64,000 bases of DNA from an uncultured Bacteroidales bacterium (GTDB lineage: Bacteria; Bacteroidota; Bacteroidia; Bacteroidales; Paludibacteraceae): assembly GCA_900319105.1 (NCBI GenBank), contig ONND01000003.1, positions 124,001 through 188,000 of the forward strand, in the 5' to 3' direction. Position 1 is the first letter of the stretch, and each line of letters starts with the position of its first letter. The notes beneath the pieces are model-generated. The model was not told the DNA's origin and did no database searches. It worked only from the letters and a program-made list of their open reading frames with translations. The translations under genes and the position numbers were made by a program. Positions 2,240 to 49,939 of the stretch are shown piece by piece.

Positions 2240-2288
2240 ACACACCATACACCGTACACCGTACACCATACACTGTACCCCGTACACT
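2240..2288. repeat. TACACCG tandem tract
   Basis: About six imperfect 7-8 bp units (TACACCG, TACACCA) are followed at 2286-2302 by TTTATTTATGTTTAT. The same pairing of tract and motif occurs at 3922-3948 and 48850-48912. Confidence 0.75.
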
Positions 2289-2327
2289 TTATTTATGTTT
2301 ATGTTCTCAATCAAATAATTAACGCTT

Positions 2328-3836: not shown

Positions 3837-3851
3837 TAACACGAATTTTAT

Positions 3852-3891
3852 AAAAAAAATGGCATGCGCACTTGCGCGTGTCATTTTTTTT
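3852..3891 (+). terminator. Intrinsic terminator (module copy 2)
   Basis: The same hairpin as at 1984 (ATGGCATGCGC pairing with GCGCGTGTCAT) is followed by eight T, directly after the TAA of the gene at 2328. Confidence 0.85.
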
Positions 3892-3901
3892 ACCACCTTT
3901 G
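3872..3901 (+). promoter_or_regulatory. Weak or decayed promoter upstream of element A1
   Basis: TTG at 3872-3874, then 19 nt, then CACCTTTG (3894-3901), one mismatch from TAnnTTTG. It is the equivalent of the promoters at 2004 and 4153. With the terminator at 4133 it would make element A1 a separate transcription unit. Confidence 0.4.
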
Positions 3902-3933
3902 CACTCGATTTTGAAAGAATGTACACCGTACAC

Positions 3934-4090
3934 TTTATTTATGTTTATTGCTTTTGAAGGCTTTTACTCGTCAGAGTGCGGAGTTTGGTGATTGAAGCCA
4001 TCTGGGAGTTTACTCACAAGTGGGTTTTAAGCACCAAGGTACGCATAGAGCGAAGCTCAAAAGCATTCAAAAGTGTTTATCTATGTTTAT
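3934..4090 (+). repeat. Structured intergenic element A, copy 1
   Basis: The outer arms CTTTTGAAGGCTTTT (3951-3965) and AAAAGCATTCAAAAG (4059-4073) pair with one mismatch. A second stem TTGGTG/CACCAA and an apical core CATCTGGGAGTTTACTCAC lie inside. The motif TTTATTTATGTTTAT on the left and TTTATCTATGTTTAT on the right flank it as direct repeats. Copies are at 36601 and, diverged, 48898. It lies between two terminator-promoter modules and contains no ORF. Confidence 0.65.
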
Positions 4091-4132
4091 ATTCTTAATT
4101 TGTTTATATTCTTAATTAAATAAAAAAAATGT

Positions 4133-4173
4133 AAAAAAAATGACACGACTTCTTGCGCGTGTCATTTTTTTTT
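4133..4173 (+). terminator. Intrinsic terminator (module copy 3)
   Basis: The hairpin ATGACACG (4140-4147) and CGTGTCAT (4158-4165) is preceded by eight A and followed by nine T. It would end a transcript from element A1. Confidence 0.75.
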
Positions 4174-4183
4174 ACTACCTTTG
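4153..4183 (+). promoter_or_regulatory. Promoter for the gene at 4267
   Basis: TTG at 4153-4155, 20 nt, TACCTTTG at 4176-4183. The -33 box lies in the terminator hairpin, as in copies 1 and 2. Confidence 0.75.
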
Positions 4184-4266
4184 CACCCGAATTTGTGAAA
4201 AATAGTATCGGCCAAACTTGGACGATCAACTATATAACTAACATTATTAACTAAAATCAAAGTATC

Positions 4267-8106: not shown

Positions 8107-8679
8107 ATGAGTAAGAACACCACACACTATTTTGTGCAGAGTGTGCCGAACTATAAAGAACTATTATTTTATCGCAAGTCGGTGGCTTTATACGATGTGA
8201 CGTTTGATTTTTGTGAGAGGTTTTTAACAAAAGGTGACCGAACGATAGACCAGATGATACAGGCTGCGAGAAGCGGCAAACAAAATATTATTGAAGGCTC
8301 AGAAGCCGCAGCTACGTCTAGCGAGACGGAAATCAAACTCCTGAACGTAGCGCGCGCAAGTCTCAAAGAGTTACAAGCGGATTTCGAAGACTATCTGCGG
8401 GCAAGAAAAATGGCAACATGGAACGAGAAACACCCAAGGTACGAAGCGCTTCGCAAGTTCTGCCGCGAGACGAATGACAGTGAACCATTCATGGCGCAAG
8501 TGGCGAAGATGAACGATGAGGAGATAGCAAATATGGCAATCACAATGTGCCACCAGGTAGATGTAATGATGAATAAATATATAGGAGTAAAGGAGCAGGT
8601 TTTTGTTGAGAATGGAGGCATCCGCGAAGCGATGACACGCGCACGCCTCCAGTACCGCAACACCCACCCGGAGTCATAG
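8107..8679 (+). CDS. Four-helix-bundle (IVP/bAvd-like) protein
   Basis: 190 residues. The pattern YRKSVALYDVTFDF, DRTIDQMIQAARSGKQNIIEG, LNVARASLKELQADFEDYL is that of the four-helix-bundle family first seen in 23S rRNA intervening sequences and related in fold to the Avd protein of diversity-generating retroelements. This subtype has an extra C-terminal half (from about residue 100, KHPRYEALRKFC onward). The family's biochemical role is unknown; Avd binds RNA and the reverse transcriptase, but there is no reverse transcriptase or template repeat here. A paralogue lies at 49379, also next to a giant surface-protein gene. Both are flanked on both sides by short-period tandem arrays. RNA binding is plausible but inferred. 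Confidence 0.85.
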   Translation: MSKNTTHYFVQSVPNYKELLFYRKSVALYDVTFDFCERFLTKGDRTIDQMIQAARSGKQNIIEGSEAAATSSETEIKLLNVARASLKELQADFEDYLRARKMATWNEKHPRYEALRKFCRETNDSEPFMAQVAKMNDEEIANMAITMCHQVDVMMNKYIGVKEQVFVENGGIREAMTRARLQYRNTHPES

Positions 8680-16843: not shown

Positions 16844-16894
16844 CCTTTGAATTTTTAAATCGAAAATGCGCAGCCATTTTGGCCTACGCGGCCT

Positions 16895-17010
16895 GAGCGT
16901 AAATGACTACTAATTCGCGTTTTGGAGCGAGCTCAACACGCGCCTTAATATTCCTTTCCGCCGTTGAGACCCTTGGTAGGGCTCAACATGGCTGCTTCCA
17001 AAAATACGGG
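16895..17010. repeat. Inverted-repeat intergenic element C
   Basis: TTTTGGAGC (16920-16928) and GCTTCCAAAA (16993-17002) pair with one bulge. Inside, GTTGAGACCC and GGGCTCAAC form a hairpin at 16963-16987. Only one copy was found. It is similar in layout to elements A and B but not in sequence. The ORF crossing it is not supported as a gene. Confidence 0.4.
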
Positions 17011-17530: not shown

Positions 17531-17715
17531 CACCCCGCATGGATTTTTGATATTTTTGTAAGCATTAGCGCATTTTCGGAAGGCGGTAGTACGGCTATCA
17601 AGCCGGACAACGGATAAGCGGTTGAAGGCGATCGTCGGGCTTGCACGAAAGAACGACTTAAAACGATTAGACTAAGGCGCATTGGACGCCGTTCCGCCGC
17701 ATTTTCGATTTATAA
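17531..17715 (+). repeat. Structured intergenic element B, copy 2
   Basis: It begins with CCCCGCATGGATTTTT and TATTTTTGTAAGC as in B1 and B3. The closing arms are GGCGG-TAGT-ACGGC near 17581 and GCCGTTCCGCC near 17689, different in sequence from B3 but still pairing. The apical part is GGGCTTGCACGAAAG. It ends just before the ruvB start. Confidence 0.6.
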
Positions 17716-17729
17716 ATAAATTACGACCT

Positions 17730-36600: not shown

Positions 36601-36753
36601 TTTATTTATGTTTATCGCTTTTGAAGGCTTTTACTCGTCAGAGTGCGGGCTTAGGTGTTAAAAGCCATCTGGGGGCTTGCACACAAGTGGGTTTTAGCAA
36701 CTAAGTACGCATAGCGCGAAGCGCAAAAGCCTTCAAAAGTGTTTATCTATGTT
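36601..36753 (+). repeat. Structured intergenic element A, copy 2
   Basis: The outer arms CTTTTGAAGGCTTTT (36618-36632) and AAAAGCCTTCAAAAG (36725-36739) are perfectly complementary over 15 bp. The inner stem CTTAG/CTAAG replaces the TTGGTG/CACCAA region of A1, with at least one compensatory pair. The apical part GGGCTTGCACACAAGTGGG contains CTTG-CACA-CAAG. It is flanked by TTTATTTATGTTTAT and TTTATCTATGTTT. The right end carries the tatD stop codon. Confidence 0.7.
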
Positions 36754-37546
36754 TTTGTTCTTCCTTCAATCCGAACAACGCCCTTGCATTCGCGCTCGTC
36801 TGGGCAATGATCTGCTCCGGCGTCGTATGATAGAGTCTCGCCAGAAAATCCACGACGTGGATCATCAGCCGGCTCTCATTGCGTTCGCCGCGGTGAGGCG
36901 TGGGAGCCATGTACGGAGCGTCTGTCTCTAATAGGATGCGCTCCAGAGGAACAACCTCCAGGGTCTCGTACAGCTTGCAGTTCTTAAATGTCAACACGCC
37001 GCCGATACCTAAATACAGGCCCATTTTCAATATCCGTTGCGCCGTTTCCTTGCTGCCGTTGAAGCAATGGAACACTCCGCGCAACTTTGTACTTTGTACA
37101 TTGTCCCTTTGTACTTCTTCCAAAATGCGCAGCAGGTCTTCCGTCGCTTCGCGGTTGTGGAGGATCACAGGCAGATTAAGTTCCCGCGCTAACGCTATTT
37201 GCTGACGCAACACCTCTTGCTGCTCTGTTTTATAAGTCTTGTCCCAATAGTAGTCCAGCCCTATCTCGCCTACTGCCACCAGTTCGTTTTGGTACTTCCG
37301 GATGGCTTGTTTTATCTCCTCTAACCGCTCTTGCCAATCCGCTTTCACGTCCTCCGGGTGCAATCCTAACGCCGGATAGCAATACCCCGGATGGGCATGA
37401 CACACCTCCATCACCGTCCGGACAGACTCGCTGTTCACGCCCGGCACGATCATCGCCTCCACACCTGCCTCCCGCTGCCGGGCTATCACTTCCTCCCTGT
37501 CCGCCGCGTAAGCTTCTTCGTCTATATGACAATGCGTATCAATCAT
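36743..37546 (-). CDS. tatD: TatD family metal-dependent deoxyribonuclease
   Basis: 267 residues. MIDTHCHID at the start carries the first metal ligands; GEIGLDYYW, VILHNREA, GVFHCFNGS and LETDAPYMAP follow. Family members are 3'-5' DNases or tRNA-editing-type hydrolases. Between ILEEV and GVFHCFNG an extra QRDNVQSTKLR is coded by a GTACAAAG-type tract (37083-37112). The final codons (EEQKHR, TAA) lie in the end of element A2. Its start overlaps the queA 3' end by 8 nt. Confidence 0.93.
   Translation of the reverse strand: MIDTHCHIDEEAYAADREEVIARQREAGVEAMIVPGVNSESVRTVMEVCHAHPGYCYPALGLHPEDVKADWQERLEEIKQAIRKYQNELVAVGEIGLDYYWDKTYKTEQQEVLRQQIALARELNLPVILHNREATEDLLRILEEVQRDNVQSTKLRGVFHCFNGSKETAQRILKMGLYLGIGGVLTFKNCKLYETLEVVPLERILLETDAPYMAPTPHRGERNESRLMIHVVDFLARLYHTTPEQIIAQTSANARALFGLKEEQKHR
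37083..37112. repeat. GTACAAAG tract inside tatD
   Basis: Minus strand: GTACAAAGGGACAATGTACA, then AAGTACAAAG. Related to 15287-15315 and 19165-19205. Confidence 0.7.
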
Positions 37547-48156: not shown

Positions 48157-48308
48157 AATTATTATATTTTAAAGTTAATAAATATTGTTGTTTGCTCATT
48201 TCTGTCCCATTAAAATTGGACATATAACTCCTTAACGCTTGTATTAGTGCCAATTATCAATCATCAATCATCAATCATCAATGTTTTATTTATGTTTATT
48301 TTCTAATC

Positions 48309-48508
48309 ACCCCGCATGGATTTTCGTCATTTTTTGTAAGCGAAGCGATTTTTTTGTAAGGAATCTATCAGTGACAATTTATTGGTACTGATAAGTGGAG
48401 TTGATAAGAAAGCTATCTGGGAGCTTGCTCACAAGTAGATTTATTAGCAATTCCACTAAGTTACATCTGTAACTGTCGATTCCGCATTTTTCTCTTCTTT
48501 TTTTGATT
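48309..48508 (+). repeat. Structured intergenic element B, copy 3
   Basis: The head box CCCCGCATGGATTTT is as in B1 and B2. The closing stem is GGAATC near 48361 with GATTCC near 48478, replacing GGCGG/CCGCC of B1: a compensatory change. The core ATCTGGGAGCTTGCTCACAA contains CTTG-CTCA-CAAG. It is antisense relative to the giant gene at 42541. Confidence 0.65.
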
Positions 48509-48556
48509 ACATCCTACACTATACACCGTACACCATACACCCTACACCCTACACTA
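48508..48556. repeat. TACACC tract
   Basis: Six units (TATACACCG, TACACCA, TACACCC). Confidence 0.8.
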
Positions 48557-48754: not shown

Positions 48755-48849
48755 GTCTTTTTGCAAATAAATTTATTTTGTTCATCAATCATAGCATTTC
48801 CGCCCCCGATCCACCATTTCGAAAATCCTTTTTATCTTTTTTCCTCCCC

Positions 48850-48897
48850 TACACTGTACACCATACACCATACACCATACACCGTACACCGTACACC
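48850..48897. repeat. TACACCG/TACACCA tract
   Basis: About seven 7-bp units directly before TTTATTTATGTTTAT and element A3. Confidence 0.85.
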
Positions 48898-49055
48898 TTT
48901 ATTTATGTTTATTGCTTTTGAAGGGCTGTTTACCGCTTCGCGGTGAGGGTTCGCTCTGGCGAGCTACGGGAAGTTTACTTACCGGCAGATTGACAGGGCG
49001 GGCACTCATGGCGTTCTTAACGCCACAGCCTTCAAAAGTATTTTGTCTGTTTATT
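48898..49055 (+). repeat. Structured intergenic element A, copy 3 (rearranged interior)
   Basis: The left arm CTTTTGAAGGGCTGT (48915-48929) and right arm ACAGCCTTCAAAAG (49025-49038) still pair, both changed together from the AAGGCTTTT form. The interior is different from A1 and A2 and includes CGCTTCGCGGTGAGGG and GGCGTTCTTAACGCC hairpins. Confidence 0.6.
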
Positions 49056-49084
49056 TTCTACCCACTCAGCGAGCCCTAATACAC

Positions 49085-49316: not shown

Positions 49317-49381
49317 TTGTTTTTTCTAGTTAGTCTAGTTAATCTAGTTAATCTAGTTTGACTAGTTCTTCTATTTCTCTA
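49317..49381. repeat. 9-bp tandem array (TCTAGTTAA) downstream of the four-helix gene
   Basis: Six to seven units (TCTAGTTAG, TCTAGTTAA, TCTAGTTTG, ACTAGTTCT). The stop codon of the four-helix gene lies at its edge. Confidence 0.85.
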
Positions 49382-49939
49382 GAAGCCTCTTTGTTGCTTG
49401 CGGGCGGCGGTCATCTGCTCACGCACGCCGCCGTTGGCGAGAAAATCCTCCTCCATAGCGGCTAGGATTTTCATCAGTCCTCTGTCCACCTGATGAATGA
49501 GCGTCAGCGCCGTGTTACACATCGTTTCTACATCCCACTGTTCGTAATAGCGGGCATAGTCTTCCGATTGATCATGTTTACGGCAATAGGCTAACATGCC
49601 GTCATAGCGCTCGTGTCCCTTCGTCCAGCGGACAAGGCTTCTGATGCGTAACTGGTCCTCATAGTCTTCGCGTAGTTCCTGTAAACTACCGCGCGCTACG
49701 TTCACCAGATGCAGCCCTGTATCGCGAGAGGTAATATAATCCTCCAATCCCTCCACTATATTCTGCTTGCCGGACCTTGCCGCCTGCTGCATCTGACCAA
49801 AAGTACGGTCAGATGCCTGCAGATAGCGAGTAATATACCAATAGGTCATGTCATACAGCACCACACTCTTCTTGTAGCAATCGAGTTCTCGGTATGTACC
49901 GGGGTACCGCAGGAAACCATTTGGGTTGAGGGTTATCAT
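49379..49939 (-). CDS. Four-helix-bundle (IVP/bAvd-like) protein
   Basis: 186 residues, paralogue of the protein at 8107. Shared blocks: YKKSVVLYDMTYW, DRTFGQMQQAARSGKQNIVEG, LHLVNVARGSLQELREDYEDQL, and a C-terminal half with KGHERYDGMLAYCRKH and NTALTLIHQVDRGLM. Flanked by TCTAGTT arrays on both sides. It lies between a giant surface-protein gene and a micro-peptide gene. RNA or nucleic-acid binding is plausible from the fold but not shown. Confidence 0.85.
   Translation of the reverse strand: MITLNPNGFLRYPGTYRELDCYKKSVVLYDMTYWYITRYLQASDRTFGQMQQAARSGKQNIVEGLEDYITSRDTGLHLVNVARGSLQELREDYEDQLRIRSLVRWTKGHERYDGMLAYCRKHDQSEDYARYYEQWDVETMCNTALTLIHQVDRGLMKILAAMEEDFLANGGVREQMTAARKQQRGF

Follow-up and report, generated by a model that had tools for sequence, protein, structure and literature searches.

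The window analysed here comprises 64,000 nt from an uncultured Bacteroidales bacterium of the Paludibacteraceae (contig ONND01000003.1, positions 124,001–188,000; assembly GCA_900319105.1) and carries three copies of a structured repeat, designated element A, which a preliminary description made from the letters alone had proposed as a possible stand-alone RNA. What are these copies, small RNA genes or pieces of DNA that move? On balance, we consider that they probably belong to a family of non-autonomous mobile DNA elements that are short, carry no genes and are recognised through the folding of one strand. This reading is based on a fold that persists through changes of its letters, and on copies that appear, vanish and swap between near-identical neighbourhoods.

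Architecture and folded strand of element A

The copies starting at 3934 (A1), 36601 (A2) and 48898 (A3) are real, reaching 158.8, 169.5 and 74.6 bits, respectively, with a covariance model built from seven copies that included A1 and A2, with A3 outside the training set; BLAST of the window and the genome recovered A2, A3 and many further copies. The unit, of ca. 165 nt, is a cloverleaf with a long outer stem and three arms, situated between two AT-rich ends that are alike and in direct orientation (left, TTTATGTTTAT; right, TATGTTTTTGTTCTTAAAA). A1 (3934–4097, + strand throughout) starts with the left end motif TTTATTTATGTTTAT (3934–3948), followed by the 5′ arm of the outer stem (3950–3965; covariation helix 1), the short hairpin of arm 1 (3966–3977; helix 2), the long hairpin of arm 2 with the conserved tip GGGAG-UUUA-CUCAC (3978–4044; helix 3), arm 3 (GAGC-GAA-GCTC; 4048–4058; helix 4), the 3′ arm of the outer stem (4059–4074) and the right end motif TTTATCTATGTTTATATTCTTA (4076–4097), the stem and arms being delimited by the predicted fold and by covariation. 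Its borders were taken from a conservation profile of 70 copies (copies scoring under 60 and L127 were left out) and are sharp, with conservation fading within about a dozen bases beyond the end motifs. Full copies are built alike. TTTATTTATGTTTAT or a close variant opens the unit and leads into a stem of some 16 pairs; the stem encloses a first short hairpin, the long hairpin, whose tip reads RRRNG-YUUR-CYYRY or similar, and a second short hairpin, and its closing arm is followed by TTTATCTATGTTTATGTTCTTAA or a close variant. The letters of the stem vary widely among them (e.g. CTTTTGAAGGCTTTT, CTGATTATTGATTTT and CCTTAGGTGGTTGTT).

The neighbours of A2 (36601–36762, +) are both on the − strand, a TatD-family gene with its 3′ end towards the element and an RsfS-family gene with its start towards it. 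In A3 (48898–49059, +), found by BLAST and the covariance model, both arms of the long outer stem are altered, as the preliminary description had stated. The A end motif occurs eight times in the window with up to two mismatches, against 0.46 expected. Two solo motifs stand without a cloverleaf: one at 2288–2302 (+), a possible empty or excised site, and another at 48285–48299 (+), immediately 5′ of the B3 unit described below. In 13 full copies the two end motifs are 133–158 nt apart, start to start, three other motif pairs having been set aside as non-elements.

The fold of A1 is more stable than that of 200 shuffled sequences (z = −4.75), and the covariation proposed previously, including compensatory changes in an inner pair, stands well above shuffled background. 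In a model-fitted alignment of 69 distinct copies across the genus, 48 of 49 base pairs have changed on both sides; 91.6% of the cells are paired, against 73.4% in shuffles, with 570 double-change cells (150.5 in shuffles) and a covariation score of 0.507 (0.174 when shuffled, at most 0.100 when slid). The inner pair corresponds to columns 55–117 of alignment A5, which are UA in 36 and AU in 14 of the 69 copies. A structure-blind MAFFT alignment examined by mutual information recovered the same fold as the model: when some 10,400 pairs of columns, separated by three or more positions, were ranked by corrected mutual information, the top 33 were all on the structure or at most one column off, non-structural pairs being mixed in from rank 34, and exact structural pairs made up 30 of the top 60. 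The third-strongest pair is an additional one within the loop of the tip, formed by C-G in 35 copies and by U-A in 32 of the 69, and the tip GCUUGC is present in 29 of the 69.

Base pairing also indicates which strand folds. If both strands mattered alike, G-U and A-C mismatches should be equally frequent; nevertheless, at lone non-standard pairs flanked by standard pairs we counted 50 G-U against 10 A-C (p = 2e-7), or 94 against 26 once the flank condition was dropped, after excluding beforehand pairs 9–171 and 71–99 of A5, which are mostly U-G. This excess shows that it is the + strand that folds, and this strand was the more stably folded one in 71 of 71 copies with DNA parameters and in 70 of 71 with RNA parameters. 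What is maintained is the fold of this strand, with a conserved tip on its long arm, and not its letters. These data fit RNA and single-stranded DNA alike and do not separate them.

The similarity between copies in the shell and in the inner arm is correlated only in part (0.45; 69 copies, 2346 pairs): three pairs share at least 90% of the inner arm with less than 60% of the shell, and 46 pairs at least 85% of the shell with less than 65% of the inner arm. This is suggestive of modular exchange, although it is not proof of it.

Spread, related units and turnover between close species

Searching its own genome with the covariance model produced 34 matches, ten of them antisense to places already matched, which leaves 24 distinct places at E ≤ 1, the weakest two with 16–17 bits. 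Counts in the wider searches are lower bounds, and absences in them are weak evidence, because only the best 20, 12 and 7 candidates per genome were scored in the genus, family and order, respectively, with stricter filters. With these bounds, the element is present at E ≤ 1e-4 in at least 90 of 151 genomes of the genus, with up to 20 matches each among the best 20 candidates; in the family sample, at least 38 of 250 genomes were positive with the best 12 candidates scored, all from its own genus, i.e. 1 of 33 genera. In the order sample, a second model found it at E ≤ 0.01 in at least 6 of 393 genomes with the best seven candidates scored, and three of these positives lie outside the genus (G548 with at least six matches, G549 and G623 with at least one each). 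Named records containing the stem sequence were metagenome-assembled genomes labelled Paludibacteraceae or uncultured Bacteroidales (28 stretches), from roe deer duodenum or rumen, or sheep colon, where the source was recorded. Viral contigs did not match any of three patterns, and plasmids and phages did not match A1 used as a query. In two genomes of other families the sole match is directly behind tRNA-Pro(TGG) (L233:1501–1703, −; L234:399–603, +); in L234 the 3′ end of the tRNA recurs after the match, at 639–657, resembling an attachment-site repeat, and pieces of an interrupted tRNA-Pro copy are found upstream of the match in L233.

The window also contains units with an A-like tip or arms yet with different ends. 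B1 (2062–2240, +) has a cloverleaf-type fold with the shared tip motif and the ends CCGCATGGATTTTCG ... GCATTTTTGTAAG before and GCGTTTTTGATTTAC after the cloverleaf, with a weak model score (13.9 bits, E 0.12). B2 (17535–17725, +) was assigned by its end motif, without a match to the model, and is not predicted to fold into a clean cloverleaf, while B3 (48312–48510, +), with B-type ends, and B4 (16849–17006, −, core as matched) reached 36.5 and 25.1 bits, respectively. In another genome, G114, at least one unit (L139, 3149–3297) has the ends GTTTTCTTATGA and GTTTTCTTGA. Both types occur combined: in L214 the outer stem of an A unit is filled by a B-type unit, the arms of the A unit itself being gone, and both L206 and L197 have an A right arm after a B unit, L197 having in addition a non-matching A-type left arm.

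Other repeats were seen near these units. Tandem repeats resembling ACCGTACACC or ACCATACACC are found in the window at about 2241–2287, 48510–48556 and 48848–48897, the first and the last of them directly preceding a solo end or an A end. A module like TTAAAATTATCGCAACACTACTAAT is situated 3′ of the right end in several copies (e.g. L085, L088, L096, L098 and L108), with an inverted copy at the opposite end of the composite in L272. A 58-nt repeat with TTGACCGTTTGGAGGTGAAACGGTCAAAAAGGTCAAAACGGTCATAACA, at G064:C1:48813–48870 and in more than 15 other places in genomes G059 and G064, is a separate dispersed family.

These two genomes, G059 and G064, represent close species and were picked up by BLAST among the fetched stretches, which allowed us to align eight orthologous sites whose flanking pieces are 87–100% identical. 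Only one site was unchanged, with the same element in both species and few changes (L273:9999); three were swapped or mosaic, three had the element in G059 alone and one retained only the left part of the element in G059 (L285:9978). Among the swapped sites, L268:7233 has matching flanks and G064 carries a clearly different subfamily member. In L268:12006 the long arm is retained whereas the outer stem and both short arms are replaced on both sides, and in L268:16044 about 37 nt of the tip are identical and the remainder, including both end motifs, is replaced. These last two sites are mosaics that simple insertion does not explain. At the three sites occupied in G059 alone (L268:9069, L271:9985 and L272:9950) the difference exceeds the unit each time, with additional repeat sequence at the flank or an intergenic stretch that has been replaced, so that none of them is a clean single-unit insertion. 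A further pair, L270:3140/L285, was left out of the count, being seen as a BLAST gap only (596 vs. 793 expected), and a search for clean empty sites with L004 and its flanks found none in wider relatives, which are too distant.

Recombination between copies could be the cause of part of this swapping. At its fullest, such an explanation would make the copies dispersed repeats that turn over by homologous recombination or gene conversion, plus hairpin loss at replication, with no dedicated mobility now. It agrees with the three sites, including two mosaics, where the element has changed between conserved flanks, and with the solo ends, which could stem from deletion between direct end motifs. 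Yet it leaves unaccounted for the spread to 24 places and to at least 90 of 151 genomes, as well as the matched arms of the fold through an almost complete change of sequence, and we consider it unlikely as the whole explanation. In the preferred reading, of mobile elements recognised as a folded strand, the turnover would include enzymatic transposition beyond recombination between copies.

Orientation, gene neighbourhood and transcription signals

The orientation of the folding strand is biased with respect to GC skew. Using 20-kb stretches, the folding strand was the strand of negative GC skew in 49 of 69 copies and in 24 of 34 regions; this first set comprised 69 of 113 matches, antisense matches and the fragments L265 613–666 and L270 1–163 being left out. 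Since the bias was first noticed after the fact, the prediction was written down before 40 new regions were fetched, and in these the folding strand avoided the G-rich strand in 29 of 40 target copies (p = 0.006), in 38 of 56 copies overall and, in the predicted direction, in 27 of 37 regions. Gene direction showed no relation with the folding strand (32 of 69, first set). The G-rich strand is in general the leading strand, in agreement here with a correlation of 0.67 between GC skew and gene direction; if so, the strand forming the stable hairpin tends to be missing from the lagging-strand template. The bias could result from hairpin loss on that template, as the recombining-repeat explanation would also yield by depleting the stable strand on the G-rich strand, or from strand-specific insertion.

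The orientation relative to genes is free. The genus locus set contained 124 matches, reduced to 75 sense rows and 74 distinct copies by removing antisense duplicates, repeats and weak fragments. According to simple ORF calls, which left one neighbour without assignment in 12 of the 74 copies, 21 are sense and 26 antisense to their neighbours, 11 lie between divergent and four between convergent genes. Locus L129 has four copies amid mostly housekeeping genes, with a glycosyltransferase, a debranching enzyme, a nucleotidyltransferase, GldD, a 7TM-HD protein and Dus near the copies, besides one protein without family and one with a BRO-N domain, and no common gene class was found among the neighbours in this locus and the window. 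The window also encodes, at 8107–8679 and 49379–49939, two proteins like the 23S rRNA intervening-sequence family, below the Pfam cut-off.

The setting of A1 between a promoter-like site and a terminator, noted in the preliminary description, holds for this copy alone. A terminator-like hairpin is present at 4133–4172, and the upstream site (about 3871–3902) is one base off the promoter consensus TAnnTTTG and was missed by our promoter pattern (TTG or TTTG/TGTG, 17–23 bases, TAnnTTTG). Applied to 66 copies, those close to a locus end being left out, this pattern detected a promoter-like site in the 120 nt upstream of just one copy on its own strand and of one copy on the opposite strand; in the downstream direction it did so for 9 of the 66 on the same strand and for 2 on the other. 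Near A1, a promoter-like TTG..TACCTTTG from 4153 stands ahead of the next gene. A terminator-like hairpin plus a promoter-like site occurs twice, flanking A1 at 3851–3913 and 4132–4195, these pieces being 85–90% alike in two longer pieces.

A1 itself may be transcribed. It is rather improbable, nevertheless, that the copies form a family of small RNA genes, each giving rise to a stand-alone structured RNA of its own. GCUUGC is a stable RNA tetraloop context and its frequency at the tip, the RNA-like tolerance of wobble pairs and the location of A1, preceded by a weak promoter-like site and followed by a terminator-like hairpin, would suit RNA genes, but the near absence of upstream promoter-like sites, the varying orientation and neighbourhood of the copies, and their absence, truncation or swapping at seven of the eight sites compared between G059 and G064 argue against it. 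A conserved structured element outside the known RNA families is what stands of the original proposal, but a stand-alone RNA is not supported as its general nature. Indeed, searches of Rfam 15 returned a tmRNA and two tRNAs only in the window, no match in six loci at E ≤ 0.5 and only tRNAs in six further loci at gathering scores, in keeping with the earlier remark that no known family was recognised.

Candidate enzymes, known classes and significance

In the reading that we favour, of a mobile DNA element recognised by its shape, the working form would be the folded + strand, with both ends brought together at the foot of the four-way junction. An enzyme encoded elsewhere in the genome would recognise this strand as its substrate and insert, remove or exchange the unit at AT-rich intergenic sites. 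As the substrate, RNA is about as likely as single-stranded DNA, with a slight lean to DNA because the orientation bias tracks GC skew and not gene direction. Among reverse transcriptases, Y1 transposases, TnpB and tyrosine recombinases, none was found to track the element in the 151 genomes of the genus, where any single absence is weak evidence because most genomes are incomplete (its own genome is 90.8% complete). Reverse transcriptase (PF00078, RVT_1) was found in 29 of 151 genomes, at least 17 of them with the element, and Y1 transposase (PF01797) in 18 of 151, at least 13 with the element, proportions to be set beside the at least 90 carriers among all 151; both are missing from its own genome. 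TnpB (PF07282) was found in 1 of 151 genomes, and tyrosine recombinases (PF00589) in 150 of 151, with three hits in its own genome and no surplus over the XerC/XerD expectation in the element-rich genomes G002 and G063 (two hits) or G102 and G106 (one hit).

Copying of the unit via an RNA intermediate by a trans-acting reverse transcriptase is improbable, more so than a family of RNA genes: the + strand does behave as a folded strand with wobble pairs, and such mobility has been suggested in part for the GC clusters of yeast mitochondria (PMC4478555), but RVT_1 is scarce in the genus and has no hit in the element's own genome, an uncertain absence given its completeness. Least likely is a regulatory or terminator function, by which an intergenic element would be maintained because it acts on adjacent genes. 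Although the copies lie between genes in the loci read, with stems followed by T-rich right ends, and a match follows tRNA-Pro directly in the two genomes of other families, sense and antisense orientations are about equally frequent, the neighbours examined (L129 and the window) share no gene class and presence differs at the same genes between close species.

Several known classes were considered and rejected. A MITE of a DDE transposon does not fit because the ends, alike as they are, face the same way, and what is inverted is the stem, which varies in sequence; moreover, the left and right ends differ systematically in the 70 copies, which excludes a copy-specific target-site duplication of the end motif, short duplications farther out having been judged by eye only. 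A retron or other element made by reverse transcriptase, and a TnpB guide RNA, were discarded by the distribution of PF00078 and PF07282, respectively. An integron attC or gene-cassette array was rejected as well, since the genes of L129 are not cassettes and some carriers have only one or two PF00589 hits.

Other repeats resemble element A in part. ERIC and BOX repeats are likewise intergenic, of ca. 130–150 nt, structured and in many copies, and to our knowledge have no known enzyme; this likeness is by description only, and element A differs by its four-helix fold, by its double-changed pairs (48 of 49) and by the exchange of subfamilies at fixed sites. REP units are single hairpins of 20–40 nt; REP and REPIN elements share with element A short palindromic intergenic units, many copies and a mobility acting in trans, in our case putative, but the rarity of PF01797 in the genus and its absence from the element's own genome led us to reject REP/RAYT and IS200/IS605 elements. 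REP/REPIN elements are mobilised by RAYT (Y1) transposases (on such elements, see PMC3116915). The attC sites of integrons (PMC6393395) are functional as a folded single strand, with one strand preferred, but they belong to gene cassettes and are recombined by IntI, whereas element A has no cassettes in L129, its ends are direct and lie beyond the stem, and several of its carriers encode no additional integrase. The GC clusters of yeast mitochondria are nearest in behaviour, attC resembling element A rather in its logic. According to PMC4478555, these clusters are short, gene-free, hairpin-forming and mostly intergenic, and their units turn over fast, merge and are shuffled, by a mechanism left open; the clusters studied are nevertheless of 42 nt, mitochondrial and with flanking repeats of 2–3 nt, whereas element A is a four-way cloverleaf of ca. 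165 nt in a bacterial chromosome, with end motifs of about 15 nt and pair-by-pair covariation. A description of element A was not found in the accessible open-licence literature, including the available parts of PMC2864571, PMC4478555 and PMC6393395.

The A and B units may, more tentatively, exemplify a class of chromosomal mobile elements of the Bacteroidales in which the single-strand fold of a four-way junction is the heritable identity, families sharing the fold and the tip and differing in their ends, with a shell and an inner arm that are separately exchangeable at a fixed site, and moved by an enzyme that reads the fold; we regard this wider proposal as possible but doubtful. Covariation is usually read as a strong sign of functional RNA, and here it comes from dispersed, swappable elements; as most of these copies have no recognisable promoter, they would be classed as RNA genes by a screen for covariation without being shown as such by their promoters. 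The close pair G059 and G064 offers a natural experiment on the movement of the element. If the folded strand is the substrate, element A would join the few systems that recognise single-strand folds, integron attC being one, and its enzyme would be a concrete target.
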